A stretch of DNA of 64,000 nt from Nitrospira sp. KM1. Lineage in GTDB: Bacteria; Nitrospirota; Nitrospiria; Nitrospirales; Nitrospiraceae. Each line of letters opens with the position of its first letter. Position 1 is the first letter of the stretch. Location: contig NZ_AP022671.1 in the NCBI RefSeq assembly GCF_011405515.1, positions 1 to 64,000 on the forward strand, written 5' to 3'. Of this stretch, positions 16,628 through 35,243 are shown piece by piece. The notes below the pieces were generated by a model, which saw only the letters and a list, made by a program, of their open reading frames with translations, was not told where the DNA came from and ran no database searches. The position numbers and the translations under genes are program-made.

Positions 16628-17308
16628 TCAGGTCCTGTTGTTCGAGAGCGCAGGCGGGATCGTGTGGCGGATGATCTTTCCTTCTACCATATAGATGACG
16701 AGTTCCGACACGTTGGTCGCATGATCGGCGATGCGCTCGATGTATTTACCGATGAACGTCAGCCGGATGGCCCTGGTGATGGTCGTGGGATTTTCGATCA
16801 TGTACGAGAGCAGTTCACGAAAGAGTTGATGCGTCAGGTTATCGACAAAATCGTCATCGGCCAGCACTTTCCGCGCGAGAACGGCATCCGACCGGATGAA
16901 GGCGTCGAGACAGTCGCCCACCATGCGCATCGTCCAGTTGGCCATGCGAGGAATATCGATATACGGTTTGAGCTGCGGCTCTTCGTTCAGTTCGATGACG
17001 CGTTCGCAGATATTCTCGGCAAGGTCGCTCATGCGCTCGAGTTCGGTGGAGATTTTCATGGCGGTCGTGACGAAGCGGAGGTCTCCGGCCGCCGGCGCCT
17101 GCAGCGCCAGCATCTTCATACACGTGCCGTCGATCTCGACGTCGAGGCTGTTGACCAGCGCGTCCCGCTCAATGACTTGCGAGGCCAGTTGCACGTCCCG
17201 TTCGACCAGCGCCTTGATGGACCGTTCGATCTGCTCCTCGACCAGCCCGCCCATCCGCAAAATCAGCTTTTTGAGATCCGCAAGTTCTTCGTCGAAATGT
17301 CTGTGCAT
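16628..17308 (-). CDS. phoU: Phosphate signalling protein PhoU
   Basis: 226 residues forming two repeats of a three-helix PhoU domain. The E/DxxxD metal-binding pattern is seen in ELERMSDLAENICERV (first half) and KYIERIADHATNVSELV (second half). PhoU links the Pst transporter to the PhoR/PhoB two-component system and is needed to shut off the Pho response when phosphate is plentiful. It is the last gene of the pst operon, starting 22 bp after the pstB stop. A PhoB-type regulator lies at 38118-38840, but no PhoR histidine kinase is visible in the window. Confidence 0.95.
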   Translation of the reverse strand: MHRHFDEELADLKKLILRMGGLVEEQIERSIKALVERDVQLASQVIERDALVNSLDVEIDGTCMKMLALQAPAAGDLRFVTTAMKISTELERMSDLAENICERVIELNEEPQLKPYIDIPRMANWTMRMVGDCLDAFIRSDAVLARKVLADDDFVDNLTHQLFRELLSYMIENPTTITRAIRLTFIGKYIERIADHATNVSELVIYMVEGKIIRHTIPPALSNNRT

Positions 17309-17330
17309 GCCTACCTCGCCAGATGTCCAG

Positions 17331-18116
17331 TCAGCCGAAACGCCCCGTGACGTACTCTTCGGTCAGCTTGTTCGAAGGATTGGTGAAGATTTGGCCCGTT
17401 CGGTCGCACTCGATCAGGCGGCCTTCGTACATAAAAGCCGTATAGTCCGATACGCGGGCCGCCTGCTGCATGTTATGCGTTACGATAACGATCGTGACTT
17501 TCTCTTTGAGCGTGGTGATCAGCTCTTCGATCCGTGCGGTCGCGGACGGGTCCAGAGCCGAGGTGGGCTCATCGAACAGAAGCATCTCCGGTCCAGTGGC
17601 CAGTGCGCGGGCAATGCAAAGGCGCTGTTGCTGCCCGCCTGACAGATTGAAGGCCTGATTGTTGAGCCGATCTTTGACTTCCGGCCAGAGGGAGGCGTCT
17701 CGCAAGGCCCGCTCCACGGCGTGATCGAGGTCTCTGCGTTTTGTGGCGCCGCGGATGCGAAGCCCGTAGGCCACATTCTCATAAATCGACTTGGGGAAGG
17801 GATTGGGTTTCTGGAAGACCATCCCGACGCGCATGCGGATTTCGATCGGATCGATATCGGGTCCCACCAGGTTGATCCGCTCCGGATACAGGATGACTTC
17901 CCCTTCATAGCGGTTTCCCGGATACAGATCATGCATGCGATTCAGACAGCGGAGATACGTGGTCTTGCCGCAACCCGATGGTCCGATGAGCGCGGTTGCG
18001 CTGCGGTCAGGCAGACTGAGCGACAAATTTTTCACGGCCTTGACATGGCCGTAGTAGAAGCTCAGGTCTTTGACTTCGGCCTTCAGCGCGACCGTCTGGA
18101 TGGAGGTCATCGACAT
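17331..18116 (-). CDS. pstB: Phosphate ABC transporter ATP-binding protein PstB
   Basis: 261 residues. Walker A is GPSGCGKTT, the Q-loop FQKPNPFP, the ABC signature LSGGQQQR, Walker [13 protein letters not shown] and the switch histidine is in [18 protein letters not shown], all typical of PstB. It powers high-affinity phosphate import with PstA and PstC. Only 4 bp separate it from the pstA stop, so the genes are co-transcribed and probably translationally coupled. Confidence 0.97.
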
Positions 18117-18120
18117 GGCA

Positions 18121-19065
18121 TCACCAATGAACGCGCTTCCGAAATCGATTGCGGATGACGATGGCCGCTGCGTTCATGAGCAGTGTCATGCCGAGAAGGA
18201 CCAGACCGGCAGCCGCTGCGTTGACGTGGAACGCTTCCTGCGGCCGGGACACCCAGTTGAACATTTGGATGGGCATCACGGTGAATGGATCGAACAGCCA
18301 TTGAAAAGAGATGAACGGGGGGTCCGATTGAATGGGAGGATGCGGTAAAAAGGCGATGAACGAGAGCGCCCCCACCGTAATCAGCGGGGCTGTTTCGCCG
18401 ACCGCGCGCGACAGGGCCAGAATCAACCCGGTGAGAATGCCGCCCATAGAGTAGGGCAGCACATGGTCCTTCACCGTTTGCCATTTCGTCGCTCCAAGCG
18501 CGTAGGCGGCTTCTCGAATCTGAGGCGGGACCGCTCTGATGGCTTCGCGTGAAGCGATGATCACCATCGGCAGAATCAGCATGGCCAGTGTCAGTCCGGC
18601 CGTCAGAAAGCTCTGCCCCAACCGGAATTCATACACCAGTAATCCAAGCGCCATCAGGCCATAGACAATCGACGGCACGCCGGCCAAGTTGGCGATATTG
18701 ATTTCGATCACATCGGTGAGGCGGTTGCTTGGAGCATACTCCTCCAGATAGATTGCCGCGCCCAGCCCCAGCGGTACGGCGGTCAAGGCTGTCAGGAACA
18801 TCACGAGCAACGTTCCCATCCAGGCGCTGATGATGCCGGCCTGTTCCGGGAAACGGGAAGGAAACGAGGTCACGAATTGCCAGGTCAGCCGCCCGGCTCC
18901 ATCAAAGAGGAGTTGGCCAAGCAGGGCCAGCAGGACGATGAGCGCGGCAAGCATGGCCGCGAGCGCGGCCGCTGCAAACAGCAGGTCTGCTCCCTTCCGT
19001 CGCCACAGCCGCGAACGCTTGGTATCGAGCTCAATAGATCTGCCGATAGCGTTTTCGGAGGACAT
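18121..19065 (-). CDS. pstA: Phosphate ABC transporter permease PstA
   Basis: 314 residues with about six membrane spans and the binding-protein-dependent permease (EAA) loop at [21 protein letters not shown]. The hydrophobic N-terminal span ([20 protein letters not shown]) is preceded by a basic cytoplasmic tail. It forms the transmembrane channel with PstC. Its proposed start overlaps the end of pstC by about 35 bp; a slightly later start would reduce the overlap, but the basic N-terminal tail is consistent with the family. Confidence 0.95.
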
Positions 19066-19975
19066 GGCCGCCTATATTGAAGATGAGGGTCATTAAGAGC
19101 AGTGTGAGACCGGTTGCAAAGATCGTTTGATATCCGATACTGCCGTGCGGCAGATCCCCGAGACTGACTTGCACGATATACGCGGTCATCGTGGCCGCCG
19201 GCTCGAGAGGATTCCAGGTCAATGTCGGCTGCATGCCGGCGGCGATTGCGACGACCATGGTCTCCCCGATTGCACGTGAGACACCCAAGACATACGCTGC
19301 AGCGATTCCAGAAAGTGCGGACGGAAACACGACGCGGAGCGCCGTCTGCATCCTGGTAGACCCGAGCGCATAGGCTCCTTCTCGAAGGTGAATCGGAACT
19401 GCGCGCATGGCATCCTCGCTGACGGAGCTGACGTACGGCACGATCATGATGCCGATGACGAGCCCCGCGCTGAGCATATTGAAACCCGGAAGGTCCGGCC
19501 AGATGTGTTGAAGCGCCGGGGTGACGAACAGCAAGGCAAAATAGCCGTAGACCACCGTGGGAACAGCGCTCAACAGTTCCAAGGCGGGCTTCACCATCTC
19601 ACGGACTGAATGGGGCGCGTATTCGCTGAGGTAGACTGCGATCAAGCTGCCAGCCGGCACGGCGACGAGCAAGGCCACCCACGTGGTCACCAGGGTTCCG
19701 GAGATCAGCGGAAGAATCCCATAGTGCGGTTCTGCAAAGAGCGGCGTCCACTGCCGGTCTGTGAGGAAATCAAACAAGGATACCTGCGTGAAAAAGAGAG
19801 ACGATTCGTATGCCAGCACGCCCACGATGCCCGCCGTAATGGCAATGGACGTCACGGCGGCTCCTAAGAGAAGGAGTTCGATCGCCCTCTCCTTGTGTTT
19901 CCGTCTGGACACGAGCACATCCAGACTTTCGCGGGCCTGCTCGAACACGTGAGATTTGGCCACTTCTGCATCCAT
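19031..19975 (-). CDS. pstC: Phosphate ABC transporter permease PstC
   Basis: 314 residues with about six spans. The EAA loop reads REGAYALGSTRMQTALRVVFP, and LISGTLVTTWVALLVAVPAG and EYAPHSVREMVKPALELL are characteristic PstC stretches. It is the partner of PstA in the inner-membrane phosphate channel. It starts 14 bp after the pstS stop and overlaps the start of pstA. Confidence 0.95.
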   Translation of the reverse strand: MDAEVAKSHVFEQARESLDVLVSRRKHKERAIELLLLGAAVTSIAITAGIVGVLAYESSLFFTQVSLFDFLTDRQWTPLFAEPHYGILPLISGTLVTTWVALLVAVPAGSLIAVYLSEYAPHSVREMVKPALELLSAVPTVVYGYFALLFVTPALQHIWPDLPGFNMLSAGLVIGIMIVPYVSSVSEDAMRAVPIHLREGAYALGSTRMQTALRVVFPSALSGIAAAYVLGVSRAIGETMVVAIAAGMQPTLTWNPLEPAATMTAYIVQVSLGDLPHGSIGYQTIFATGLTLLLMTLIFNIGGHVLRKRYRQIY

Positions 19976-19988
19976 CGTCTGCTCCTTG

Positions 19989-21017
19989 CTACAGCGCCGA
20001 CTCCCGCCGCAGCAGATCTTCGATCTTCAGGCCTATGGTGGACGTTCCCTGAAACGCCGTGCCCACCTTTCCGTGTTGGAAGTGGTCGAGGGCGATGCTG
20101 TAGGCCTGTTTCGGCAGCGGGACATATTTCACCTGGGGCACAAGCGTCTGTGCCTGCGTGAGGTAGAACTCCACGAACCGTTTGATCTCGGGTTTCGCAG
20201 CGGCCTTGGTGCTGACATAGATGAACATCGGTCGTGACAGGGGTTGGTAGGTCCCGTTCTCGACGGTGTCGCGCGAGGGGAGCACCGGCCCCGTTCCGCC
20301 GTCGATGCCGAGCGCCTTCAGGCGTTTCTTATTCGGTTCGAAATAGGCGTAGGGAATGTACCCCAAGGCATGTTTGTCGTTTGAGATGCCCTGCACAAGG
20401 GTGTTGTCGTCCTCGCTGGCGGTATAGTCGCCGCGGCTGGATTTCGCCTTGCCCACCACGGCTTCTGTGAAATAGTCGAACGTGCCAGAATCAGAGCCGG
20501 CGCCGAACAGCTTAATCGGACTATCCGGCCAAGAGGACCGGATCTGATTCCATTTCAGCAGGCGGCCCTGCGCCGAGGGTTCCCAGATCTGCTTGAGTTC
20601 GGCGACGGTCAAGTTGTCGATCCACGTCGCTTGCGGGCTGACGGCAACCGTCAGCGCATCAAAGGCGACCGGCAACTCAAAATACTGCACGCCGGCCGTC
20701 CGACAGACCTCCATCTCGGCACTCTGAATCGGGCGTGAGGCATCCTGCACATCGGTTTCACCACGGCAGAACTTCTTGAATCCTCCCCCGGTCCCGGAGA
20801 TGCCGACCGTCACACGCACCGCACCCCGAGTTTCTTTTTGGAACTCTTCGGCCACTGCCTCCGTGATCGGAAACACGGTGCTCGACCCGTCGACTTTGAT
20901 CAGCACAGGGGATTCAGAATGGATGGACTGAACAAACCCGCCGCTGATCAATCCAAGCAGGCCAAACCCGGTTGCAATGATGAGTCTCGTTCGAGAGCGA
21001 GCCATTGACAATCGCAT
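19989..21017 (-). CDS. pstS: Periplasmic phosphate-binding protein PstS
   Basis: 342 residues from the ATG at 21017, which has GGAGG seven bases upstream; the open frame extends to 21098 without a plausible start. A signal peptide ([20 protein letters not shown]) leads into the phosphate-binding fold: [17 protein letters not shown] near the N-terminus and [18 protein letters not shown], whose Ser/Thr/Gly residues ligand phosphate, and later [12 protein letters not shown]. It delivers phosphate to PstCA. It is the first gene of pstSCAB-phoU, with a three-unit Pho box about 70 bp upstream of the start. Confidence 0.96.
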
Positions 21018-21086
21018 GCGGTGTCCTCCGTATTTCGCGCGTATCTTATGATTGCGTATCAGTATACGGGAGGAATGGGCCCGTTC

Positions 21087-21114
21087 GATTACGTCCACGT
21101 TACGTCCGCGTTAA
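21087..21114 (-). promoter_or_regulatory. Pho box upstream of pstS
   Basis: Read on the minus strand, three 6-bp units follow one another with exact 11-bp phasing: TTAACG, GTAACG and GTAATC (plus-strand positions 21109, 21098 and 21087). PhoB-family regulators bind direct repeats with this 11-bp period. The proximal edge is 70 bp from the pstS ATG, the same distance as in the second pstS promoter (43819). Confidence 0.7.
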
Positions 21115-21689: not shown

Positions 21690-22526
21690 GTGAATAAACC
21701 CTTCGCTTCGCGTCCATTGTCGTTTAGGACAGTCTGGATCTCCGATGTGCATTTGGGTTTCCGTGGTTGCAGCGCCGATCATCTCCTCAAATTTCTCCAA
21801 TCCGTCGATTGCGAATTTCTCTATCTCGTAGGGGACATCATCGATGTCTGGGAAATGAAAAAGCGATTGTTTTGGCCGCAATCTCATAACAACGTCCTCA
21901 GGACGATTCTCGGTAAGGCCAAGCACGGGACAAAGGTGATGTATATTCCAGGAAACCATGACGAAGTGTTTCGAGATTATCACGACATGACATTCGGCAA
22001 TGTGCACATTGTTGAGGAAGCCATTCATATCAATGCCGACGGGAGGCGATTGTTGGTGACCCACGGAGACAAGTTCGATAGCGTCGTACGGTGTTCAAGA
22101 GCCATCGCGATGCTCGGTACACGGCTCTATGACTGGCTGCTGAAGGCCAACTATGTCGTTCATGGAGTCCGGCGACGCTTTGATCTCCCATATTGGTCGT
22201 TAGCGGGTTTCTTGAAGCATAAAGTCAAGAATGCCGTGCAGTTCATCAGCAATTTCGAGCAGGCGGTGGCATATGAAACTGCCCGTTTAGGGGTCGATGG
22301 AGTGGTGTGCGGCCATATCCATCGCCCTGAAATCGTGAAATTGAATGACGTCATCTATTGTAATTGCGGTGACTGGGTGGAGAGCTGCAGCGCTCTCGTG
22401 GAGCATTTCGATGGAAGTCTGGAATTGCTGCGGTCGGCTGATACCGTGGCGAGCCTTAAACGGACCCGTGTCATGCAAGCCGATCGATTGACGCTCTATT
22501 CGGACGATGACCTCATTGTAGCCTGA
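21690..22526 (+). CDS. PlcP/LpxH-like metallophosphoesterase
   Basis: 278 residues, GTG start. It carries the full calcineurin-like metallophosphoesterase set: SDVHLG (18-23), GDIID (48-52), GNHDE (88-92), THGDKFD (124-130) and GHIHRPE (208-214), which hold two metal ions. Databases usually call the family UDP-2,3-diacylglucosamine pyrophosphatase (LpxH). However, the segments RGCSADHLLKFL and YLVGDIIDVWEMKK resemble the PlcP branch, a phospholipase C that removes phosphate head groups from phospholipids under phosphate limitation. An Agt-like glycosyltransferase (24902-25915) lies close by and the pst operon is adjacent, which favours the PlcP role. It is probably co-transcribed with the following aminotransferase fusion (46 bp gap). 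Confidence 0.82.
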   Translation: MNKPFASRPLSFRTVWISDVHLGFRGCSADHLLKFLQSVDCEFLYLVGDIIDVWEMKKRLFWPQSHNNVLRTILGKAKHGTKVMYIPGNHDEVFRDYHDMTFGNVHIVEEAIHINADGRRLLVTHGDKFDSVVRCSRAIAMLGTRLYDWLLKANYVVHGVRRRFDLPYWSLAGFLKHKVKNAVQFISNFEQAVAYETARLGVDGVVCGHIHRPEIVKLNDVIYCNCGDWVESCSALVEHFDGSLELLRSADTVASLKRTRVMQADRLTLYSDDDLIVA

Positions 22527-22572
22527 ATCTGCGAGAAGAACTGTGAACGCGCGCGTCATTGGAGGAGGAACC

Positions 22573-24873
22573 ATGATCGGCGAATTGATTGAAAATCGGA
22601 TCGCCTGTTGGTTGAACACCGCAGAGGCATGCAAGCTCGGATCGATAGACGTGGTCGTTGGTCTGGTGTTCTGCGCCCTGGCCGGCGCGGCAATCCTGTA
22701 CTCTCGTCGCCTCTTGTCTACGTTCTTAACAATGAGTGCAAGATCGTTTACGCCTACACTTTCCCGTTTCCTGTCGAGATGGGTCAAGACCACTGACTAT
22801 GAGGGGAAAGACTTTTTCCGAGCCGACGGGGCCGATGAACAGGTTGTCGCGCGGAGACAGTTGGCGCTCGACCGCCTGGCCGCGCATTTTGAAACGCAAC
22901 ATCCGAAATCGATTTCCTGGAGCAATCGAATTCGAGACGGTCTTTCCGACCTGCGATTTACCGATGCCGGGCGCGTACCGTTTCCCTTTGCTCGCGTCAT
23001 GGGAAATAAGTTCAACCTCTGTTCAGTGGTGACGGCGTCACATGACCCGAAGCTGCTCGATATCGACGGCCATTGGTCTCTCGATGTCACGGGGTCGTAT
23101 GGGGTGAATGTCGCCGGGTACGATCAATACAAAGAATGGATGGGCAAAGGGTGGGAACAGGTCAAAGCATTGGGGCCCGTTCTCGGGCCACTGCACCCGA
23201 TCGTCGCTGAAAATATCGCCATGCTGAAATCCATCTCCCGACTGGACGAGGTCTCGTTTCACATGAGCGGGACCGAGGCCGTCATGGCGGCTGTTCGCCT
23301 TGCACGCTTCAATACCAAAAGGAAAACGATCGTATGCTTTTCAGGCGCCTACCATGGATGGTGGGATGGGGTGCAACCCGGATTAGGCAGTGAACGGGAA
23401 ATCAGTGACTGTCTCACGTTGAAGGATATGAACCCCGTTTCTCTTCGGGCGATTAAAAGAATGAGGAGGGAAATCGCCGGGGTTGTCGTCAATCCCATTC
23501 AATCATTTCACCCCAATTCTCCTCCACCGAGCGATGCCATCCTCCTGACAAGCAGTGTGCGGAAAACAGAAGACGCGCATGCCGCCTATGCCGTATGGCT
23601 GCGGCAATTACGGGACATCTGCAACGCTTGCGATGTCCCGCTGATCTTTGATGAGGTGTACTCAGGATTTCGGCTCGCCCCAGGCGGCGCACAGGAGTAT
23701 TTTGGTGTCCGCGCAGATCTGGTCGTCTACGGGAAGACGGTTGGGGGAGGCATGCCCATTGGCGTGGTGTGCGGCAAGAAGGAACTGATGCGTCGGTTCG
23801 ACCCCGATCACCCTATGCGCCTCGCCTATGTAATCGGCACCTTTTCGGCGCATCCGCTGGTGATGGGGGCAATGAATGAATTTCTTCGCTGGGTCGTTCG
23901 GCCGCAGACCCAGCAGCTCTATGAAGAGGCGCATCGGCACTGTACTGACTGGGCAGCGGCGACGAACAAGGAGTTTTCGGAACACAAGTTGCCGCTGCGG
24001 GTTGTCAATCTCGCAACGGTTTGGACGATCCTCTTCCAGCAACCAGGCCGATACAATTGGTTATTGCAGTACTATATGCGAGCCGCAGGCATCACGTTAA
24101 GTTGGGTCGGAACCGGACGCTGTTTAGCCAACATGGCCTTTACACAGGAGCATTACGACGAGTTGCGGGTCAAACTGCTGACCGCAGCCTCCCGCATGGA
24201 AGAAGACGGTTGGTGGCTCAGGGGGGCCGAGGCCAAGGGGAGCAGGTCGATGAAGGCACGGCTGGCTTGGGAAATCATCGGAAGCGTGATTCAGGTTCCC
24301 AAACCAGCGCAAGCGTTCTACGCCGAGGTCATGAGGCGGAAACACGACGACCATCTGGCGTCTCACAGTCATCCGTTGAATCAACTCTTTCATCTGCTGA
24401 GTTCCAGCGTGTTTATTTATTGCTATGTGCTGATCTTTACCGATCTGACGACTGCGGTCACCGCCAGCCTCGCCGCGCTATTTCTCCGCCAATTCGGCCA
24501 TGCACTGGTGGAACCTCCCTGTCACGACAAGGAGGAACTGCTCCTCGGATTTAACACTCCCAGCAAAACCATGATTGTATCGGCCTATTGCCTCATTCCC
24601 GTTGCCAATATGCTAGCGGCAGGCAGTTGGGCGATGACGAGTCTTGTAGACCGATTACCGATCATCGCTCAAGAATGGTTCGGGTTGACGGTGGCTGTCG
24701 TACTCGGACGCGTGGTCTATCTTGCCTGGTTGCACAATATTCAGGTTGCGATGATCTGGTTCATAAAACTGATCACTGATCCGTTCACGGACATTTTGGC
24801 CTATTTACCTCGGTCTGTGAGCGCGTGGCGGGCATTCCTGCCGCCCTATGCCATGAATTACAAACACCGTTAA
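22573..24873 (+). CDS. Class III aminotransferase fused to an Mpo1/DUF962-like membrane domain
   Basis: 766 residues from the ATG at 22573, preceded by GGAGGAGG. A single N-terminal membrane segment (about 24-44, VFCALAGAAILY) is followed by a fold-type I PLP enzyme resembling glutamate-1-semialdehyde aminotransferase: HMSGTEAVMAAVR near 228, FDEVYSGFR near 358 and the probable PLP lysine K388 in VYGKTVGGGMPIG. The last 170 residues are membranous with conserved histidines (SHPLNQLFH near 598, QFGHALVEPP near 641), matching the Mpo1/DUF962 family, in which yeast Mpo1 is an Fe2+-dependent 2-hydroxy fatty acid dioxygenase. An amino-lipid or long-chain substrate is a reasonable inference. It lies between PlcP-like and Agt-like lipid enzymes. 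Confidence 0.8.
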   Translation: MIGELIENRIACWLNTAEACKLGSIDVVVGLVFCALAGAAILYSRRLLSTFLTMSARSFTPTLSRFLSRWVKTTDYEGKDFFRADGADEQVVARRQLALDRLAAHFETQHPKSISWSNRIRDGLSDLRFTDAGRVPFPFARVMGNKFNLCSVVTASHDPKLLDIDGHWSLDVTGSYGVNVAGYDQYKEWMGKGWEQVKALGPVLGPLHPIVAENIAMLKSISRLDEVSFHMSGTEAVMAAVRLARFNTKRKTIVCFSGAYHGWWDGVQPGLGSEREISDCLTLKDMNPVSLRAIKRMRREIAGVVVNPIQSFHPNSPPPSDAILLTSSVRKTEDAHAAYAVWLRQLRDICNACDVPLIFDEVYSGFRLAPGGAQEYFGVRADLVVYGKTVGGGMPIGVVCGKKELMRRFDPDHPMRLAYVIGTFSAHPLVMGAMNEFLRWVVRPQTQQLYEEAHRHCTDWAAATNKEFSEHKLPLRVVNLATVWTILFQQPGRYNWLLQYYMRAAGITLSWVGTGRCLANMAFTQEHYDELRVKLLTAASRMEEDGWWLRGAEAKGSRSMKARLAWEIIGSVIQVPKPAQAFYAEVMRRKHDDHLASHSHPLNQLFHLLSSSVFIYCYVLIFTDLTTAVTASLAALFLRQFGHALVEPPCHDKEELLLGFNTPSKTMIVSAYCLIPVANMLAAGSWAMTSLVDRLPIIAQEWFGLTVAVVLGRVVYLAWLHNIQVAMIWFIKLITDPFTDILAYLPRSVSAWRAFLPPYAMNYKHR

Positions 24874-24901
24874 GTGGGCGACGTCGCGTCGACGAACCGA
24901 C

Positions 24902-25915
24902 TCATTCCCAGCTTTTTTCCTTAAAGGGCTCCAACAGCGAGACAAACCTCTCCGTCCACTTCCTCCAGGAATGTTGCCGCGCATACGCGATACAGGCATC
25001 AGGATCAAGCGTGAGCGCGTCAATGACTGCCTTGCGAAGATCGGGATCAGTCACTCCGGTCGTGCCATTCTGAATGATGTCGATCGGCCCTGTGACCGGA
25101 TATGCCGCCACCGGCACGCCGCAGGCCATAGCTTCCAGAAGGACGAGACCGAAGGTATCAGTAAGACTTGGAAACACAAAGACATCTGCCGCTGCCACAT
25201 AGGCCGTCAATTCTAGCCCATGTTTGGCCCCTACAAACCGTGCGTCTGGATAGCGGGTTCGCAGTCGCTCTAGGTCTGGGCCGTCCCCCACGACATACTT
25301 CGTTCCTGGCACATCGAGACGTAAAAACGCCTCTATGTTTTTCTCCACCGCCACTCTTCCCATATACATCGCTATGGGTCTCAGATCATTGAGGTACGAT
25401 TTTGGACCAGGTTTAAACAGGTTCGTATCGACCCCTCTCGCCCAAATGTCCAAATTTCTGAACCCTCGCTCTTCCAAGATACGCTTCATGGACGGCGTCG
25501 CTATCATGGTGCGAGACGCCCGGCCGTGATACTGGCGCAGGTAGGCATATGACCATGAAGTTGGAATGGGGAACCGCGCGCGAACGTATTCCGGAAATTG
25601 CGTGTGATAGGAAGTCGTAAACGGCATCGACCTGGCAAGACATAACGCGCGCGCCGCATGACCGAGAGGACCCTCTGTAGCGATGTGGATCGCTTGCGGT
25701 CGAAACCGTTCAAGTGCTCGTCGTACTCCTGATTTGGGAAATAGTGCCAAGCGGATCGATGGGTACGTGGGGCATGGATAGGTTCGAAAATCCTGTGGAG
25801 TGATGAACTGCACATCATGCCCCAAATCCGCCAGATTTTCGGCGGTGTGGCCCAGTGTCCGCACGACACCGTTCACTTGAGGACGCCAGGCGTCAGTGAC
25901 AATGGCAATTCTCAT
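24902..25915 (-). CDS. Agt/SqdX-like GT4 glycosyltransferase
   Basis: 337 residues, a complete GT-B enzyme. The N-terminal acceptor domain starts RIAIVTDAWRPQVNGVVRT and contains HIATEGPLG and TSYHTQFPEYV; the donor domain has YMGRVAVEKNIEAF, VGDGPDLERL and the nucleotide-sugar site around FPSLTDTFGLVLLEAMACG. These signatures match the group containing SqdX, MgtA and the Agt enzymes that glycosylate diacylglycerol. In several proteobacteria Agt works with PlcP, which makes diacylglycerol from phospholipids when phosphate is limiting. A PlcP-like gene lies 2.4 kb away on the opposite strand. It follows the TPR gene at 25937-26689 by 21 bp in a probable operon. The sugar donor cannot be told from the sequence. 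Confidence 0.85.
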   Translation of the reverse strand: MRIAIVTDAWRPQVNGVVRTLGHTAENLADLGHDVQFITPQDFRTYPCPTYPSIRLALFPKSGVRRALERFRPQAIHIATEGPLGHAARALCLARSMPFTTSYHTQFPEYVRARFPIPTSWSYAYLRQYHGRASRTMIATPSMKRILEERGFRNLDIWARGVDTNLFKPGPKSYLNDLRPIAMYMGRVAVEKNIEAFLRLDVPGTKYVVGDGPDLERLRTRYPDARFVGAKHGLELTAYVAAADVFVFPSLTDTFGLVLLEAMACGVPVAAYPVTGPIDIIQNGTTGVTDPDLRKAVIDALTLDPDACIAYARQHSWRKWTERFVSLLEPFKEKSWE

Positions 25916-25936: not shown

Positions 25937-26689
25937 CTACGGGGCTGGAGAGCGTTCGAGTTCTTGGAGAAGCCGCTCCGCCTCCGGTTTGTACTTTCTT
26001 TCCCATGTATAGGCATAGTGCGGCCGATCAGCCTGAATTACCGCCAAAAGCTGTTGTACAGCATCTCGCTGACGGCCCTGCTTCCGATACAGTTTCGCCG
26101 CGAGGATCCGGGCGTGCATGAAATTGCCATCGGCGCGGATGGCCTGCTCGAGGTAGGCCTGAGCCTTTTTTTCATCTCCGCCAAGAAACCAAGGCAACTC
26201 CAGCAAAAGTCCTCCCATCATTTGTAGAGCCTGTGCGTGAGCGGGATTGAGCGCTATCGCTCGTTCCAGACAATGCCGTATGTCGCTGAGGACCAGCGCT
26301 GCGCTTGTCATCCCCTTGAGTCGTTCAGCACTGCCGAGGTTGATGGCGTAAAAGAAATGGGCGTCAGCATTGGCGTCGTTTAACTGGAACGCTTGTTTGG
26401 CCATATTCGCACCCATTTCGTAAGTCGTTCGTCGCGCGACGTCATCCGTCAGTAGATCATCGGCGAGATCAAAATATGTCTCTGCCAGTTTCGTTAGAAG
26501 AGCGGACGAAGGGCCTTCTTTCTTCACGTGCTCGAGGAGTTCCTGCAGGGTGGATTCCAATGAATACGGGTAGCCGGCAGGCATTTCGTCGCGTTGGGCG
26601 TAACCCGGCATCTTCAGGATTAATAGATTGACCACGAAGAAACTAACGAGGAGACATCCGGCACGCATGCTCTGAGATGCATATGACAT
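25937..26689 (-). CDS. Exported TPR-repeat protein
   Basis: 250 residues. An N-terminal signal peptide or anchor (AGCLLVSFFVVNLLILKM) is followed by about five TPR-like helical pairs (LLTKLAETYFDLADDL, ANADAHFFYAINLGSAERL, PAHAQALQMMGGLLL, FMHARILAAKLYRKQGR). It is expected in the periplasm or at the inner-membrane surface as a scaffold. It is the first gene of a two-gene minus-strand unit with the Agt-like glycosyltransferase, so it may hold a membrane-lipid enzyme complex together; that role is inferred from position only. Confidence 0.75.
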   Translation of the reverse strand: MSYASQSMRAGCLLVSFFVVNLLILKMPGYAQRDEMPAGYPYSLESTLQELLEHVKKEGPSSALLTKLAETYFDLADDLLTDDVARRTTYEMGANMAKQAFQLNDANADAHFFYAINLGSAERLKGMTSAALVLSDIRHCLERAIALNPAHAQALQMMGGLLLELPWFLGGDEKKAQAYLEQAIRADGNFMHARILAAKLYRKQGRQRDAVQQLLAVIQADRPHYAYTWERKYKPEAERLLQELERSPAP

Positions 26690-29410: not shown

Positions 29411-31078
29411 TTACGGTGTCTTCTTTGTGCTCAGGGTGTTGTTCCATACCCTGGTGAACGCAGCGAGCTTTGCTTTCGAGGACCTGCGCTCATCAGCAAG
29501 CGCTTCCAGGAAGTCGGCCAAGCGGCTGGATTTCAGGACCGTATAGAATGTCACGATGAAGGCTACAATGAGGACAAGCATGAACACCAGGAAGCGTGCG
29601 ATGGCTGATTCGTCAGCCATCGCGAACAGATTCATTCCCAGGAAACCGGTTGTCGCCACCCCAATCAAGCCGACGGTAGCAACGACAGTCAACCGGACCA
29701 TTGTCTCACCCTGCCTGCGCAGCGCATCGCTATCGAGATACTGGTTCATGTCTTCGATGGCGGTTCGCACTTCGTCATACAGCCGCTGCGTGCTCAAATG
29801 TTCGCTGACCATGCGAAAGAGTTCTTTTGCTTGAGTGTGATCCGAGACTTCGCGAAACCAATACCGCTGGGTAAATCGAAGAAAGATGCCCAACATTTGA
29901 CGGATGGTGCGCCGGAACGTTCGTACCGACTGGAGACTCTCGACTTCCAGGCGGTTGGTCACATCGACCAAGCGGTCCTGTAACATCAGCAGCGCCGCTC
30001 TATGAAAATGAGAAATGAGAAAGAGGAGAAAATACTCGTGCCGGAACTGCTCCAGGTCTGTCTTGCGTCCGATGAATGTCCTGCGATTGCGGTCTCCCAC
30101 CATGGTAAACACCCGTCCGGTACACATGAACCGAGTCCCTGCCTGTTCCCGTCCCTGTCCATTCCAATACCGGTCGTAACAGAACCGCTCTTCGAAATCC
30201 CGCAGGTGGCTTCCGGAATGGAGGGGTGAGTCTGGTGCGGAAGGTGCGGATGCCAAGCCTAGCTGAACGAATTCCTCACGGCTCAAGGACTCGGGATCGT
30301 CCATGACGAGATACGCCATTAATGGCATCAGATGGTATTCGATCTGTCGATAACGGATGAGACCTTTTTGTCCCGAATGGTGCAGCACCAATGGTTTGAG
30401 TAAGTACTCCCAATGAGAGGCCATGCACGGTGACCGATACCGGCAGACGAAAGAAAGATATCTCTCACGGTTTTCATAGTCGGACATTGCCAGAATGTTG
30501 CCCTCTGCGGACAGCCACTGTACGTTCTTGGCGCAATGACCTCCTTGTCCGTCCGGTTCCCAGTAGGTGGGATAACAGCGGCCAAAGCGGAACAAAACAT
30601 TCTGTACAAGGGGAAGCGGGACCTCGTCGCCGTAGACCTCAACGACAAGAATCGCCAGGTCGATGTCATAGAAGAAATAGAGATCCACATGCGCCACCGT
30701 CAGAATCAGCGGTTCGGTGTGCGGGTCGGAGAACGTCATCTTCACTTGTGCAATGTCGTTGCGTCGAAATACGCGTATGGAGGATCCCTGAAGGATGGCC
30801 GCCCCGTTACCTTTGCTTTCACCGTACAAAAAACGTTGAACAAACGGGAGAAATGTGACGAACTCGCTGTAGTGCCGTTCCTGAAACAGAACGGGATCAC
30901 CCGTGAACTCGTCCTGCAACTCGTCCCAGGGATTGTCTTCGCCGGGTGTTTGCAGCCGCTCCCAATGCTTCTGAATCGGTGCGCGTTCACTGATAGGCAT
31001 CAATTGCAAAGGCCAGAGCAGGATTTGTCTGAAGTGCCGGACTATCTTGTCCTTTTGAAGGATACTGGGATCGGCCAT
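29411..31078 (-). CDS. Divergent CorA-like metal-ion transporter
   Basis: 555 residues, longer than the usual 316-370 of CorA. The large N-terminal part is soluble. The C-terminus has a long charged helix (RLYDEVRTAIEDMNQYLD), then a first span (VRLTVVATVGLIGVATTGF) followed at once by GMNLF, the signature of the CorA Mg2+/Co2+ channel selectivity loop, and a second span (FLVFMLVLIVAFIVTFY). The two-span tail with GMN between the spans is diagnostic for the superfamily. The N-terminal domain was not recognised. Transport of Mg2+ or another divalent ion is inferred. Confidence 0.75.
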   Translation of the reverse strand: MADPSILQKDKIVRHFRQILLWPLQLMPISERAPIQKHWERLQTPGEDNPWDELQDEFTGDPVLFQERHYSEFVTFLPFVQRFLYGESKGNGAAILQGSSIRVFRRNDIAQVKMTFSDPHTEPLILTVAHVDLYFFYDIDLAILVVEVYGDEVPLPLVQNVLFRFGRCYPTYWEPDGQGGHCAKNVQWLSAEGNILAMSDYENRERYLSFVCRYRSPCMASHWEYLLKPLVLHHSGQKGLIRYRQIEYHLMPLMAYLVMDDPESLSREEFVQLGLASAPSAPDSPLHSGSHLRDFEERFCYDRYWNGQGREQAGTRFMCTGRVFTMVGDRNRRTFIGRKTDLEQFRHEYFLLFLISHFHRAALLMLQDRLVDVTNRLEVESLQSVRTFRRTIRQMLGIFLRFTQRYWFREVSDHTQAKELFRMVSEHLSTQRLYDEVRTAIEDMNQYLDSDALRRQGETMVRLTVVATVGLIGVATTGFLGMNLFAMADESAIARFLVFMLVLIVAFIVTFYTVLKSSRLADFLEALADERRSSKAKLAAFTRVWNNTLSTKKTP

Positions 31079-31815
31079 GAGGTTCTTCCTATACGAGGAG
31101 CACGGATCGTATTCTCGAATCGAGATGAGCGGCTATCAAATTGGGAGCCCTCATTAAGTCAGACCTCTCTGTTGATGTCGCGTCTGCCGCGGTGTCCATA
31201 TGACCTGGTAAGCTGAATATGCGGAGGTTTGAGAAACCTCTCGATGGTGCGGCTCGCAGATGCGATGCAGAAATGGTCAATCGACATTGACGACTTCCGG
31301 TTTACACATCCGGTCGGTAGGTAGCATAGCGCGATTGCCTTACGCTTCTCTCGCAACTGGTTTGCTGCCTGTCTTCCACGCTGTATGGATTTGTGCCATG
31401 ACCCCTTGGGTGGCCGTTGGGTTGGCGTTAAGGACTGGAACGTGCGATCGGTCAAAGAATACTTCTGTGGCCATGCATCTTAATGAACAGATAGCTCTGT
31501 TAGACGATCGGGATCCATACCGCAGGGCACTTAAGTGGTCGTTTTAGTAGCTCTCTTCCAACTGTCAGGGTGAACCTCCTATTTGTGACGAGGATAAGAA
31601 GTAGAGATTTCCGATCGATTATCTTCGGATTACGGATGTGTAAATTAATTGTCGACCCGTTGCCATAGCGGCTCTCGGGGTCGCATAGTCACCGGTTAGC
31701 TGTCTGAATAAGGCGGTGGAGAGCTTGAAGGACGAACCGGTTAGGAGAATGTTTCACCAACTTCGTGATGCCTCTTAACCGTGAGCATTATGTGCGAAAA
31801 AAGGAGGCGATCTTC
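31079..31815 (+). other. Longest gene-free stretch in the window
   Basis: About 735 bp between divergent genes. Several short open frames exist on both strands, but none combines a ribosome site with protein-like composition. A perfect 7-bp inverted repeat with a 3-base loop lies at 31224-31240 without a T-run. It must hold the promoters of the CorA-like gene and the DUF155-like gene; a small RNA is possible but not supported. Confidence 0.5.
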
Positions 31816-32952
31816 GTGCAAGTGTTAATGCCAGAACATACGTGTATTGCTCGGGAGACGTCATCACTTACGATAGATAAAGGAACGTGTTATGCCATTT
31901 TCGCCTACGATGTGGGCTCTTCTATCAGCCTGGAGCAGGCCGGTAGCCGCCTGTCACAGGACACGGAACGCGGGCGTTTGAAGCACACTGCCCGGGCTCC
32001 ACAATATTTCGACTACCGTCCTGCTCCTCTTCGCTTAATCCAAGAGGGAGCATCATTATTATTAGGCCGGTATACGTCAGCTCCCACCACTGAAATTATG
32101 GTGTATGACTTCGGTGCCGTCACGATTACCTATCGATTTGCCTTAAAAGGCCCATTCAATGACCTGCTGGAACTGAGTGAAATGCTCTATGAAAATGATC
32201 AGTTGCTGAAGGAGTCACGCCTTCGGGTCGGTCAGCTCGTTCAGGCCTTGGGGGATGCTATCGATCGTCCCAACATTGGCCACGAAGAGGAAGATTATCT
32301 CGTTTTTGCGATAGAGAGCTGCTCATCCTTGCAGCAGACCCCGGTTTGGATCAACCGGGAAGCAGAACTCGCTCGGATCCTTCGCGGCGAGCGGACACCG
32401 CTTTCGGACCAGGAAATTGCCGATGCGACTGCATGTCGGATTTCATTCGGGACGGACGATGCCGTCTTTATCGATTGGCACGCAGCGGTACTGTTCGGGA
32501 AGGATATGGATGACGTGAGGGCGGTTCTCGAGTTCGCCAATGTCGAATTACTTGAAATGAGAACTTTGGACGAACAACTTGATCGAGCCCTGGACCAAGC
32601 CTATGAGGCCTTGTCCCGCAAGCCGAAGCTTCTACAACTGCCAGGCTCTTACCACAAGGACACCACGCACATTGCGCAGTTGCAAGTTGATGGGGCACTT
32701 CTTTTTGAGCGGGTAACCAATACGCTCAAGTTGCTGGGCGATCAATACTTGGCTCGTGTGTATCGTCTTGTATCCCAGCGATTCCACTTGGAGGCCTGGG
32801 ACGCCAGCATTCTGCGAAAATTAGATACCCTCAATAGCATCTACGGCAAGATGTCCGATCGCGCCAGCGTGCAGCGTATGGAACTCTTGGAATGGATCAT
32901 TATCGTGCTGATCACGGTTTCCATTGCGATATCGGTTCTTGAATTGAGGTAG
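31816..32952 (+). CDS. Rmd1/DUF155-like membrane-anchored protein
   Basis: 378 residues from the GTG at 31816, which has AAAGGAGG eight bases upstream; an upstream in-frame GTG at 31765 lacks such a site. The body is soluble and mixed alpha/beta (TTEIMVYDFGAVTITYRF, AVLFGKDMDDVRAVLEFAN). It ends with a helical region (RASVQRMELLEWII) and one C-terminal span (IIIVLITVSIAISVLEL). The LEWIIIVLI ending and overall plan resemble the DUF155/Rmd1 family, whose yeast and bacterial members are membrane proteins of unknown activity. No partner is adjacent on the same strand. Confidence 0.65.
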   Translation: MQVLMPEHTCIARETSSLTIDKGTCYAIFAYDVGSSISLEQAGSRLSQDTERGRLKHTARAPQYFDYRPAPLRLIQEGASLLLGRYTSAPTTEIMVYDFGAVTITYRFALKGPFNDLLELSEMLYENDQLLKESRLRVGQLVQALGDAIDRPNIGHEEEDYLVFAIESCSSLQQTPVWINREAELARILRGERTPLSDQEIADATACRISFGTDDAVFIDWHAAVLFGKDMDDVRAVLEFANVELLEMRTLDEQLDRALDQAYEALSRKPKLLQLPGSYHKDTTHIAQLQVDGALLFERVTNTLKLLGDQYLARVYRLVSQRFHLEAWDASILRKLDTLNSIYGKMSDRASVQRMELLEWIIIVLITVSIAISVLELR

Positions 32953-33095: not shown

Positions 33096-35243
33096 TTAGT
33101 ACCGAGACTTCCAGCGGGACATGAACCATTCTTGAGAATGGATCGGTGACTCACCTTCGGATGGATGAAGACGTCGGTAGGTTCCGTCTGGTTGCAACTC
33201 CCGAGCTTGAACATTGTCTTGTATACCGATGCCAAGAATTTCGGTAATAAGCACGTCTCGCCAATGTGGAGGTGTCACGGGAAACAGAATTTCAACTCGC
33301 TGATCGAGATTGCGAGGCATGAGGTCCGCACTTCCCGCGAACACTTCGTCCTGTCCGCCGTTCTTGAAATAGTAGATCCGCGCATGTTCTAGGAACCGCC
33401 CGACCACGGACACGACTCGAATCGTTTCGCTCAGTCCAGGCACGCCAGGCCGCAAACAGCAAATGCCTCGCACCTGCAAGTCGATTTTCACTCCCGCTTG
33501 TGACGCACGATACAACGCCTGGATGCAGGCCTTATCGACCAATGCATTCATTTTAAATGCGATGTAGCCGTCACGGCCCGCTTGGTGATGTGTGATTTCA
33601 CGCTCGATTCGATCAATCAGCTCTTTTCGCAGAAGCTTGGGTGCGATGAGCAACTTGTCGTAGGCCGGTTTGCGTGAATATCCCGTCAGTGCATTGAACA
33701 GATCCGACACGTCGTTGCAGATAACGGGATCTGAGGTGAAATAACTGAGGTCGGTATAAATGCGGCTCGTGGCGACATTGTAATTGCCTGTCGCGAGGTG
33801 GGCGTACCGCCGTATCCCTTCGGACTCTCGGCGTACCACGAGGCACGTTTTCGCATGAGTCTTCAGGCCATGCACTCCATACACGACATGCACACCCTCG
33901 TCCTCAAGTTTGCGAGCCCATTCAATGTTGCTTTCCTCGTCGAACCTCGCTTTGAGTTCAACTAAGACGGCGACCTGCTTGCCATTCATCCGGGCTTCCA
34001 GTAGTGCGTCCACAATGGGGGACTTCGCGCCAACGCGATACAGCGTCTGCTTGATGGCAAGAACCGCCGAATCATTTGCCGCTTCACGTATGAAATCGAC
34101 CACTGGCACGAAGCTGTCGTAGGGGTGAAACAGCAAGATATCCTGCTGGCGGACGGCCGCCAACATTCCGCCTGGCTGGGTGCAAATCGGAGGAACAACG
34201 GGAACGTGAAATGGATCTTTCAAGTCCGGTCGGTCGAGCGCCGTGAGCTCTGCGATTCCTGCCATTCCGATGGGATCGTTTTCAGAATACACTAAATAAG
34301 GCGACAACTGGAGATTGCCGATGAGGATATCTGCGATACTACTCGGTGTTTTGGCCTCGAGTTCCAGCCGAACGGCGGATCCGAACTCCCGGAGATCGAG
34401 CTGTTGTTCCACCGTCGTCAGGAGATCCGCCGCTTCATTCTCGGTGATAGTCAAATCGGCATCCCGCGTCACGCGGAATGCATACGAAGCCACAATTTCT
34501 ACGCCCGGGAAGAGCAGATCCAAATTATCCGCCACAATATCTTCCAGCCATACAAACCGCGAAATCCTTGATTCGCTTCCCAACAGGGTCTCTTGAAGCG
34601 ACGCTGGTGATTCCTCAGGGATAGGGATCAGGCGTTTGAACCCACCAGGCAATTTGACACGGGCGAAACATTCCCCCCGGTCGGGATCTTTGACGATGAC
34701 GGCCAAGTTAAAACTTAGATTTGAGACATGGGGGAACGGATGGGTGGGATCGATTGCTAACGGCGTCAGAACGGGAAAGATCTCCGCACAGAAGTAATCG
34801 CGAAGACGGAGTCGTTCCTTCTCCGTCAGAGACTTGCTGTGCAAGACGTGTATGCCGGTTTCAGATAATTTAGGACAGATATCTTCATGCCAACAGGATT
34901 GATGCCGCTGAAGCAACGGTGTGACTTCGCGACAAATCGCCAACATCTGTTCCGAAGGAGTCATGCCGTCAGGCGGGGGTTCGCCCACTCCTGCGGCTAC
35001 TTGACGTCGGAGGGCGGAGACCCTCGTCATGAAGAATTCGTCTAAATTCGTTGCGAAGATAGTTAAAAACTTTGCTCGCTCCAACAGGGGATAGCCTGTA
35101 TTCTCCGCTTCTTCGAGCACACGGAGGTTGAACTGCAGCCAGCTCAGTTCTCGATTGAGAAACAGATTCGGACTGTCGAGGTTCTGAACGGTTTCGTTCG
35201 AAGGGAGCCCGGAATCTAGATTCGGGTTTGGACTGATGGACAT
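33096..35243 (-). CDS. ppk1: Polyphosphate kinase 1
   Basis: 715 residues, the normal length for PPK1. N domain: FLNRELSWLQFNLRVLEEA and FLTIFATNLDEFFMTRV. The catalytic C domains contain VAVLVELKARFDEESNIEWA, the HAKT motif with the candidate phospho-histidine, RRYAHLATGNYNVATSRIYT and the loop VRGICCLRPGVPGLSE. The enzyme makes polyphosphate from ATP at the inner membrane, storing phosphate. It is transcribed away from the PiT phosphate transporter, and a three-unit Pho box lies about 104 bp upstream. Together with pstSCAB this points to control by phosphate supply. Confidence 0.97.
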   Translation of the reverse strand: MSISPNPNLDSGLPSNETVQNLDSPNLFLNRELSWLQFNLRVLEEAENTGYPLLERAKFLTIFATNLDEFFMTRVSALRRQVAAGVGEPPPDGMTPSEQMLAICREVTPLLQRHQSCWHEDICPKLSETGIHVLHSKSLTEKERLRLRDYFCAEIFPVLTPLAIDPTHPFPHVSNLSFNLAVIVKDPDRGECFARVKLPGGFKRLIPIPEESPASLQETLLGSESRISRFVWLEDIVADNLDLLFPGVEIVASYAFRVTRDADLTITENEAADLLTTVEQQLDLREFGSAVRLELEAKTPSSIADILIGNLQLSPYLVYSENDPIGMAGIAELTALDRPDLKDPFHVPVVPPICTQPGGMLAAVRQQDILLFHPYDSFVPVVDFIREAANDSAVLAIKQTLYRVGAKSPIVDALLEARMNGKQVAVLVELKARFDEESNIEWARKLEDEGVHVVYGVHGLKTHAKTCLVVRRESEGIRRYAHLATGNYNVATSRIYTDLSYFTSDPVICNDVSDLFNALTGYSRKPAYDKLLIAPKLLRKELIDRIEREITHHQAGRDGYIAFKMNALVDKACIQALYRASQAGVKIDLQVRGICCLRPGVPGLSETIRVVSVVGRFLEHARIYYFKNGGQDEVFAGSADLMPRNLDQRVEILFPVTPPHWRDVLITEILGIGIQDNVQARELQPDGTYRRLHPSEGESPIHSQEWFMSRWKSRY

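Follow-up and report, generated by a model that had tools for sequence, protein, structure and literature searches.

A membrane-anchored aminotransferase fused to an Mpo1-like domain in a PlcP-Agt-type locus of Nitrospira, and its inferred part in a phosphorus-free aminolipid

In Nitrospira sp. KM1 the genes for a phospholipase C-type metallophosphoesterase (PlcP) and a diacylglycerol glycosyltransferase (Agt) lie beside the operon for high-affinity phosphate uptake, and between them sits a gene in which a class III aminotransferase is fused to an Mpo1-like membrane domain (AT-Mpo). We propose that this is a PlcP-Agt-type operon for remodelling lipids under phosphate starvation, combined with a headgroup-amination module, and that under PhoB control it would make a phosphorus-free, nitrogen-containing lipid resembling PE or PC; we put the chances of this reading at about even. 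The analysis bears out the original observation and its interpretation, and shows the finding to be wider than was apparent from the window alone. Two of the three enzymes are already known and the AT-Mpo extension appears to be undescribed; the product is not established. The identities of PlcP and Agt and the conservation of the gene set can be read from the sequence; the product and the order of the reactions are inferred.

Organisation of the locus

By the window we mean the whole stretch of DNA analysed, 64,000 nucleotides of a genome that forms a single contig of 4.51 Mb and whose same-genus relatives are Nitrospira; loci used for comparison are denoted by L and a number. The gene plcP (21690..22526, +, 278 aa), assigned from its open reading frame, identity and tree position, is followed after 16 bp by that for AT-Mpo (22543..24873, +, 776 aa), and a gap of 28 bp (24874..24901) separates the latter from agt on the other strand (24902..25915, -, 337 aa). 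Genes, order and spacing are those originally predicted, with the PlcP/Agt pair inside 4.3 kb, and so is the position directly beside pstSCAB-phoU, the open reading frames of phoU-pstB-pstA-pstC-pstS filling 16628..21098 on the minus strand (PstS TIGR02136, 292.8 bits). The pst operon also adjoins the locus in Nitrospira L036. All AT-bearing Nitrospira genomes examined (8 loci) retain PlcP, AT-Mpo and Agt, and a glycosyltransferase is present in 15 of 15 loci of the fused type, so that the gene set is more than a chance arrangement. On the far side of agt lies the gene of a TPR protein of unknown role (25937..26689, -), likewise conserved beside Nitrospira loci, with 60-65% identical homologues in L036, L037, L045 and L047.

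Other neighbours can be noted in passing. An alpha/beta hydrolase gene divergent from plcP is found in most related Nitrospira loci (L036:4821-5627, L037:11842-12594, L047:8608-9465) and is missing beside the window plcP. Between the locus and polyphosphate kinase (33096-35243) the window encodes a CorA-like membrane protein (29411-31078) and a second, conserved protein whose C-terminal part has a hydrophobic segment (31765-32952), homologues of the latter lying close to the locus in L037, L045 and L059 as well. By the locus of Nitrospira sp. CR1.3 there is a PstS-like protein of 780 aa with a long ankyrin-repeat-like N-terminal region (L037:542-2884).

PlcP and Agt

The product of 21690-22526 is a PlcP orthologue, and the release of DAG from phospholipids under phosphate limitation can be inferred for it from this orthology. 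It is 52.4% identical to PlcP of P. aeruginosa (PA3219 copy, L151) and 45.5% to that of S. meliloti, as against 21.7% to E. coli LpxH; it has a calcineurin-type Pfam Metallophos match of 39.8 bits, and the tree places it inside a PlcP clade of 38 rows (support 100/98), apart from LpxH. This agrees with the PlcP-like character suggested for it from the sequence alone. No close second PlcP copy was found in the window genome. PA3219 and PA3218 are PlcP and Agt1 in P. aeruginosa (PMC8528852); our reference is a plasmid-borne copy that keeps the plcP-agt order, and it is by similarity, gene order and annotation that we equate it with PA3219/PA3218, and the S. meliloti record with the PlcP that has been characterised.

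The reference records have some features of their own. The plcP-agt pair occurs on three P. aeruginosa plasmids, and on one of them, pHPA0698-2 (L151:3977-7758), the plcP-agt1 copy is accompanied by a cyclase gene and a gene for a 105-aa Mpo1-like protein. The S. meliloti record (L148, CP090106.1; 3.7 Mb) is labelled plasmid pSymB, and the AHL synthase and LuxR genes near its plcP suggest a chromosome.

The glycosyltransferase encoded at 24902-25915 is an Agt orthologue, from which the transfer of a sugar to DAG, giving MGDG or GADG, is again only predicted. It is 49.7% identical to the enzyme beside P. aeruginosa plcP (PA3218/Agt1 copy), has Pfam Glyco_transf_4 and Glycos_transf_1 matches above cut-off (GT4) and falls in an Agt clade of 43 rows (SH-aLRT 99) together with P. 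aeruginosa Agt1 and a plcP-adjacent glycosyltransferase of Methylocapsa, where agt has been reported beside plcP (PMC9239053). What had been described as Agt/SqdX-like can now be placed in a supported Agt clade.

The aminotransferase and the Mpo1-like domain

AT-Mpo is a membrane-anchored class III aminotransferase. PF00202 (Aminotran_3) matches residues 160-541 with 107.2 bits against a cut-off of 30.5, and the lysine expected to bind PLP, K398 of a YGKTxGGG motif (codon 23734..23736, +), is invariant across 43 homologues, its role being inferred from class III aminotransferases. The hydropathy profile has a single N-terminal hydrophobic segment (residues 27-57) and several more in the C-terminal domain. 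Among related Nitrospira the protein is 70-76% identical, and AlphaFold2 models it fairly confidently (pLDDT 83.6 for the whole, 87.5 for the C-terminal domain alone). The nearest solved structure is the beta-aminating AMT domain of MycA from mycosubtilin synthase (6kfm; E 1.5e-72, Foldseek E 1.9e-26); glutamate-1-semialdehyde (GSA) aminomutases are also among the nearest, and the sugar C-6' aminotransferases 7lld and 7lm0 are weaker relatives. A phage or viral origin of the aminotransferase was considered and rejected, no relative having been found among viral contigs.

The C-terminal domain of the window protein (24301..24870, +) scores 16.6-19.6 bits against PF06127, below the Pfam gathering threshold of 24; we regard the homology to Mpo1 as real because 56 of 57 family members match PF06127 independently (E up to 0.1; best 2.3e-6). 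Its conserved residues are H604, H608, H617, H653, E657 and D662, and H608, H617, H653 and E657, forming the pattern H...H...GH...E, are invariant in the family alignment and aligned with a P. aeruginosa Mpo1-like protein. The search for solved structures gave no clear relative of this domain; its matches, all weak and helical with Z no higher than 5.4, are not interpretable. An oxidising chemistry of the iron-dependent dioxygenase type is borrowed by analogy from yeast Mpo1 and stays an inference. The fusion of a class III aminotransferase to a lipid-oxidising-type membrane domain, as originally predicted, is real, with a strong match for the first part and a diverged Mpo1-like match for the second.

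Distribution and partner genes

The AT family is widespread and apparently undescribed: a scan of genome contigs gave at least 581 related stretches, and the best 80 of these, which were kept for study, come from Proteobacteria, Nitrospirota, Acidobacteriota, Planctomycetota, Binatota and others, while no description of the AT/Mpo/PSD set was found in the open-licence literature. Full-length AT-Mpo occurs in 6 of 295 Nitrospirota genomes, belonging to two genera, and in three of seven genomes within the genus. The aminotransferase was found in only one of 240 genomes of a class-wide alphaproteobacterial sample, centre genome included, which implies that the locus is patchy.

AT and Mpo are separate adjacent genes in Proteobacteria, a split form that differs from the fused one in its partners. 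Among the best 80 of the at least 581 stretches, the 15 fused-form loci all have a glycosyltransferase, 13 a PlcP-like metallophosphoesterase (in L052 and L054 not one of the PlcP clade), six a PEMT and none a PSD; the 38 split-form loci with full flanks all have Mpo and PSD, 31 a glycosyltransferase and 13 PmtA. As these loci had been chosen by AT similarity, the coupling to PSD was retested in a Bradyrhizobium sample not so chosen. Here 59 of 60 genomes carry AT, every one of them (59/59) with a PSD on the AT contig at a distance of about 0.3 kb, and the sole genome that lacks AT has only one PSD. Two Marinobacter genomes carry the module but gave no PlcP match, so PlcP is not a constant requirement for it.

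The PSD of the locus is a second, distinct and dedicated copy. Nitrospira genomes have one PSD, while each genome tested from outside Nitrospira has two, or in one case three; the locus copies carry the motif HGST (few QGST), against LGST in five housekeeping copies checked, and they retain the catalytic D90/H147/S254. Alphaproteobacteria add a second Agt and PmtA, and some Nitrospira add PEMT. In the sister strains L036, L037, L045 and L056 a PEMT-type methyltransferase gene (PF04191) follows AT-Mpo, at the place of the 28-bp gap in the window; a whole-genome search gave no match to it in the window strain, and as several relatives lack it too, methylation would be optional.

The two Agt genes of Alphaproteobacteria lie one by plcP and one at the AT locus, and the latter cluster separately, which suggests a glycosyl-DAG step reserved for the module. 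Some other AT loci have a different GT4 clade or a GT4 protein of about 900 aa in place of Agt, implying that the loci retain a glycosyltransferase through changes of family. The 900-aa type, with a long N-terminal extension, is encoded between AT and PSD in gamma- and zetaproteobacterial loci (L064:9204-11939, with similar ORFs in L061, L066, L086, L095, L099, L107 and L120), and the extension of the L064 protein has no Pfam match.

The plasmid of Sphingomonas parapaucimobilis (NZ_CP155753.1; L044:5314-25578) has AT and Mpo-like as two genes beside PSD and a PmtA-type methyltransferase. A few kb from this split locus lies a sphingolipid-like region with genes for a class I/II aminotransferase, an acyl carrier protein, a fatty acid desaturase and lptF/lptG.

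Phosphate control

The Pho-box consensus of PMC8528852 was scanned in 76 loci alongside eight permuted motifs. Of 138 sites, 64 fell within the 6.8% of sequence just upstream of module genes, where the permuted motifs gave 1-19, and Proteobacterial loci do have Pho boxes upstream of module genes. Nitrospira loci lack this consensus; what they share is TTAAC-N6-TTAAC, a direct repeat of 11 bp that stands before pstS-like genes, before agt and in the divergent region between plcP and the alpha/beta hydrolase gene. In related Nitrospira 12 of 21 such sites lie within 5% of the sequence (permuted motifs, mean 0.6), though this is the weaker evidence, as the repeat was noticed post hoc in the same data. 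The window has one candidate of this kind, TTAAC-N6-GTAAC immediately upstream of pstS (21099..21114, -). The pstS promoter alone has a good Pho-type site, and no strong Pho-type motif, an enterobacterial-type Pho box before plcP included, was found before plcP or agt in the window. The Pho-type motifs of relatives support the expected phosphate control, in the absence of PhoB binding data, and in the window itself such support reaches pstS only.

A possible pathway and its alternatives

By orthology to characterised enzymes, PlcP would hydrolyse phospholipids to DAG and Agt would add a sugar to it. The further steps are inferred. The Mpo1-like domain, whose family has a known dioxygenase, may oxidise the lipid headgroup to a carbonyl, which the PLP domain would aminate; in Proteobacteria, judging from gene content, the product would be an alpha-amino acid, decarboxylated by the dedicated PSD and then perhaps methylated on the amine by PmtA. 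In the sister Nitrospira a PEMT-type enzyme may methylate the amine, and in the window strain, which lacks PEMT, the amine would stay unmethylated in the product; in fused loci without PSD either the housekeeping PSD serves or the amine forms directly. This is the set of enzymes that a cell short of phosphate would need in order to give a phosphorus-free lipid an ethanolamine- or choline-like end. An amino-modified glycolipid remains an inferred product, and the dedicated PSD paralogue together with the N-methyltransferases points to a PE/PC-like aminolipid rather than to a simple amino-sugar lipid. No lipid analysis or biochemistry stands behind this pathway, which rests on gene content and orthology.

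Besides the weak Mpo1 match, the Marinobacter genomes without a PlcP match and the lack of a strong motif before plcP or agt in the window, two further points speak against the proposed pathway: fused-type loci, the window's included, have no PSD of their own (0/15), and every PSD and PmtA characterised so far works on phospholipids, so that those of the loci may simply act on real PE and PC. In one alternative PSD and PmtA/PEMT make PE and PC, PlcP degrades them, and AT-Mpo deaminates or oxidises the PE headgroup to salvage phosphate, without any new lipid. Class III PLP enzymes acting on phosphoethanolamine exist, the PmtA of the locus scores best to the NCBIfam phospholipid N-methyltransferase PmtA, and PmtX3/X4 of B. 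diazoefficiens methylate PE in E. coli (PMC8590670). However, making PE and PC under phosphate starvation runs counter to PlcP, a second, diverged HGST PSD would be superfluous beside the housekeeping one, and the dedicated second Agt is left unexplained; we think this account unlikely, though still worth keeping in mind.

One specific form of the aminolipid that we propose would be a DGCC-like betaine lipid, DAG-O-CH(COO-)-O-CH2CH2-N+Me3, made from a glycosyl-DAG such as glucuronosyl-DAG through AT, Mpo, PSD and Pmt. DGCC has a carboxy-acetal in place of the phosphate of PC. Mpo would cleave the sugar of glucuronosyl- or pentosyl-DAG oxidatively between C2 and C3 to a keto acid, AT would turn this into a serine-like ether, and the HGST PSD would decarboxylate the ether before PmtA/PEMT trimethylates it. 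The biosynthesis genes of DGCC are unknown (PMC10685587), and the lipid has been called unprecedented in bacteria (PMC7242380). We offer this on chemical reasoning only and consider it unlikely.

Alternatively, Mpo might act on one carbon of the sugar in glucosyl-DAG, and AT would aminate the aldehyde or ketone so formed, giving for example 6-amino-6-deoxyglucosyl-DAG, with optional N-methylation by PEMT. This would suit the fused type of the window (Agt, AT-Mpo, optional PEMT, no PSD), and the weaker structural relatives 7lld and 7lm0 are in keeping with it; it is nonetheless improbable, as it does not explain the strict PSD coupling of split loci (38/38, and 59/59 in Bradyrhizobium), and the nearest solved relatives of AT are the MycA AMT domain and GSA aminomutases and not sugar aminotransferases.

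The closest of these relatives, the MycA AMT domain, is in keeping with the idea that the substrates of Mpo and AT are acyl chains, either fatty acyl or 2-hydroxy-acyl, changed by alpha-oxidation to an aldehyde and beta-amination as in MycA, so that only shared Pho control would link them to PlcP and Agt. The substrates of Mpo1 are, by the family name of PF06127, 2-hydroxy fatty acids, and the Sphingomonas copy lies near a sphingolipid-type region (spt/acp/lptFG), but that neighbourhood was seen in one plasmid only, and PSD, Pmt and a dedicated Agt would have no explanation; we hold it to be very improbable.

That the phosphoesterase is the lipid A enzyme LpxH, in a locus unrelated to phosphate starvation, can practically be dismissed: LpxH models are its best NCBIfam matches, at 48 and 44 bits, but these lie far beneath the cut-offs of 134 and 190, as does the characterised P. 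aeruginosa PlcP (55 bits), which makes the database name misleading, and besides its low identity to LpxH the gene adjoins Agt and pst. LpxI is present in the window genome and its relatives, so the phosphoesterase is not needed for lipid A. One outcome that would have refuted the original prediction, a true LpxH with no other enzyme for its step, is thus not what was found.

Comparison with known systems

The replacement of lipids under phosphate limitation shapes the phosphorus demand of waters and soils, and the module occurs in Nitrospira and in Bradyrhizobium (59 of 60 genomes sampled) as well as in methanotrophs, methylotrophs, iron oxidisers and marine gammaproteobacteria. If our reading is true, a class of membrane lipid has been overlooked in well-studied organisms, and if the product mimics PE or PC, the locus names genes for phosphorus-free betaine-type lipids of unknown biosynthesis.

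The closest known system is the PlcP-Agt pathway of P. aeruginosa (PA3219-PA3218), M. trichosporium, S. meliloti (PlcP) and A. tumefaciens and Pelagibacter (Agt), with MGDG and GADG as expected products (PMC8528852, PMC9239053, PMC4796936). The window shares with it the orthologous pair beside pst and, in its relatives, Pho-type motifs; it differs in the AT-Mpo fusion between the two genes and the optional PEMT, an arrangement absent from the published plcP contexts that we found (PMC4796936), as had been predicted. The proposed product resembles that of the BtaA/BtaB (DGTS) pathway, likewise a zwitterionic lipid without phosphorus that is N-methylated and formed when phosphate is limiting, and plcP-btaAB clusters exist (PMC4796936), but the nitrogen would come from transamination rather than from the aminocarboxypropyl group of SAM. 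BtaA (PF11899) was absent from 19 of 20 genomes examined, most of them AT-bearing, and as the window genome is among these, DGTS synthesis was rejected for it.

The individual enzymes can be compared in the same way. With the PS -> PE -> PC route (Psd, PmtA) the Proteobacterial loci share a PSD-family decarboxylase and a PmtA-type methyltransferase, whereas their PSD, a second copy, has diverged in sequence (HGST for LGST), is mostly oriented divergently to AT and is furnished with Pho boxes. The Mpo-like domain has the H...H...GH...E pattern in common with yeast Mpo1, a 2-hydroxy fatty acid dioxygenase, and with DUF962, but is about 200 aa long, has a C-terminal region peculiar to its family, conserves a TDPFxD stretch and is fused to or paired with an aminotransferase. 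AT-Mpo, finally, shares the class III aminotransferase fold and PLP site with the MycA AMT domain and GSA aminomutases, and is set apart from them by its 26% identity, its membrane anchor, its Mpo partner and its setting among lipid genes.
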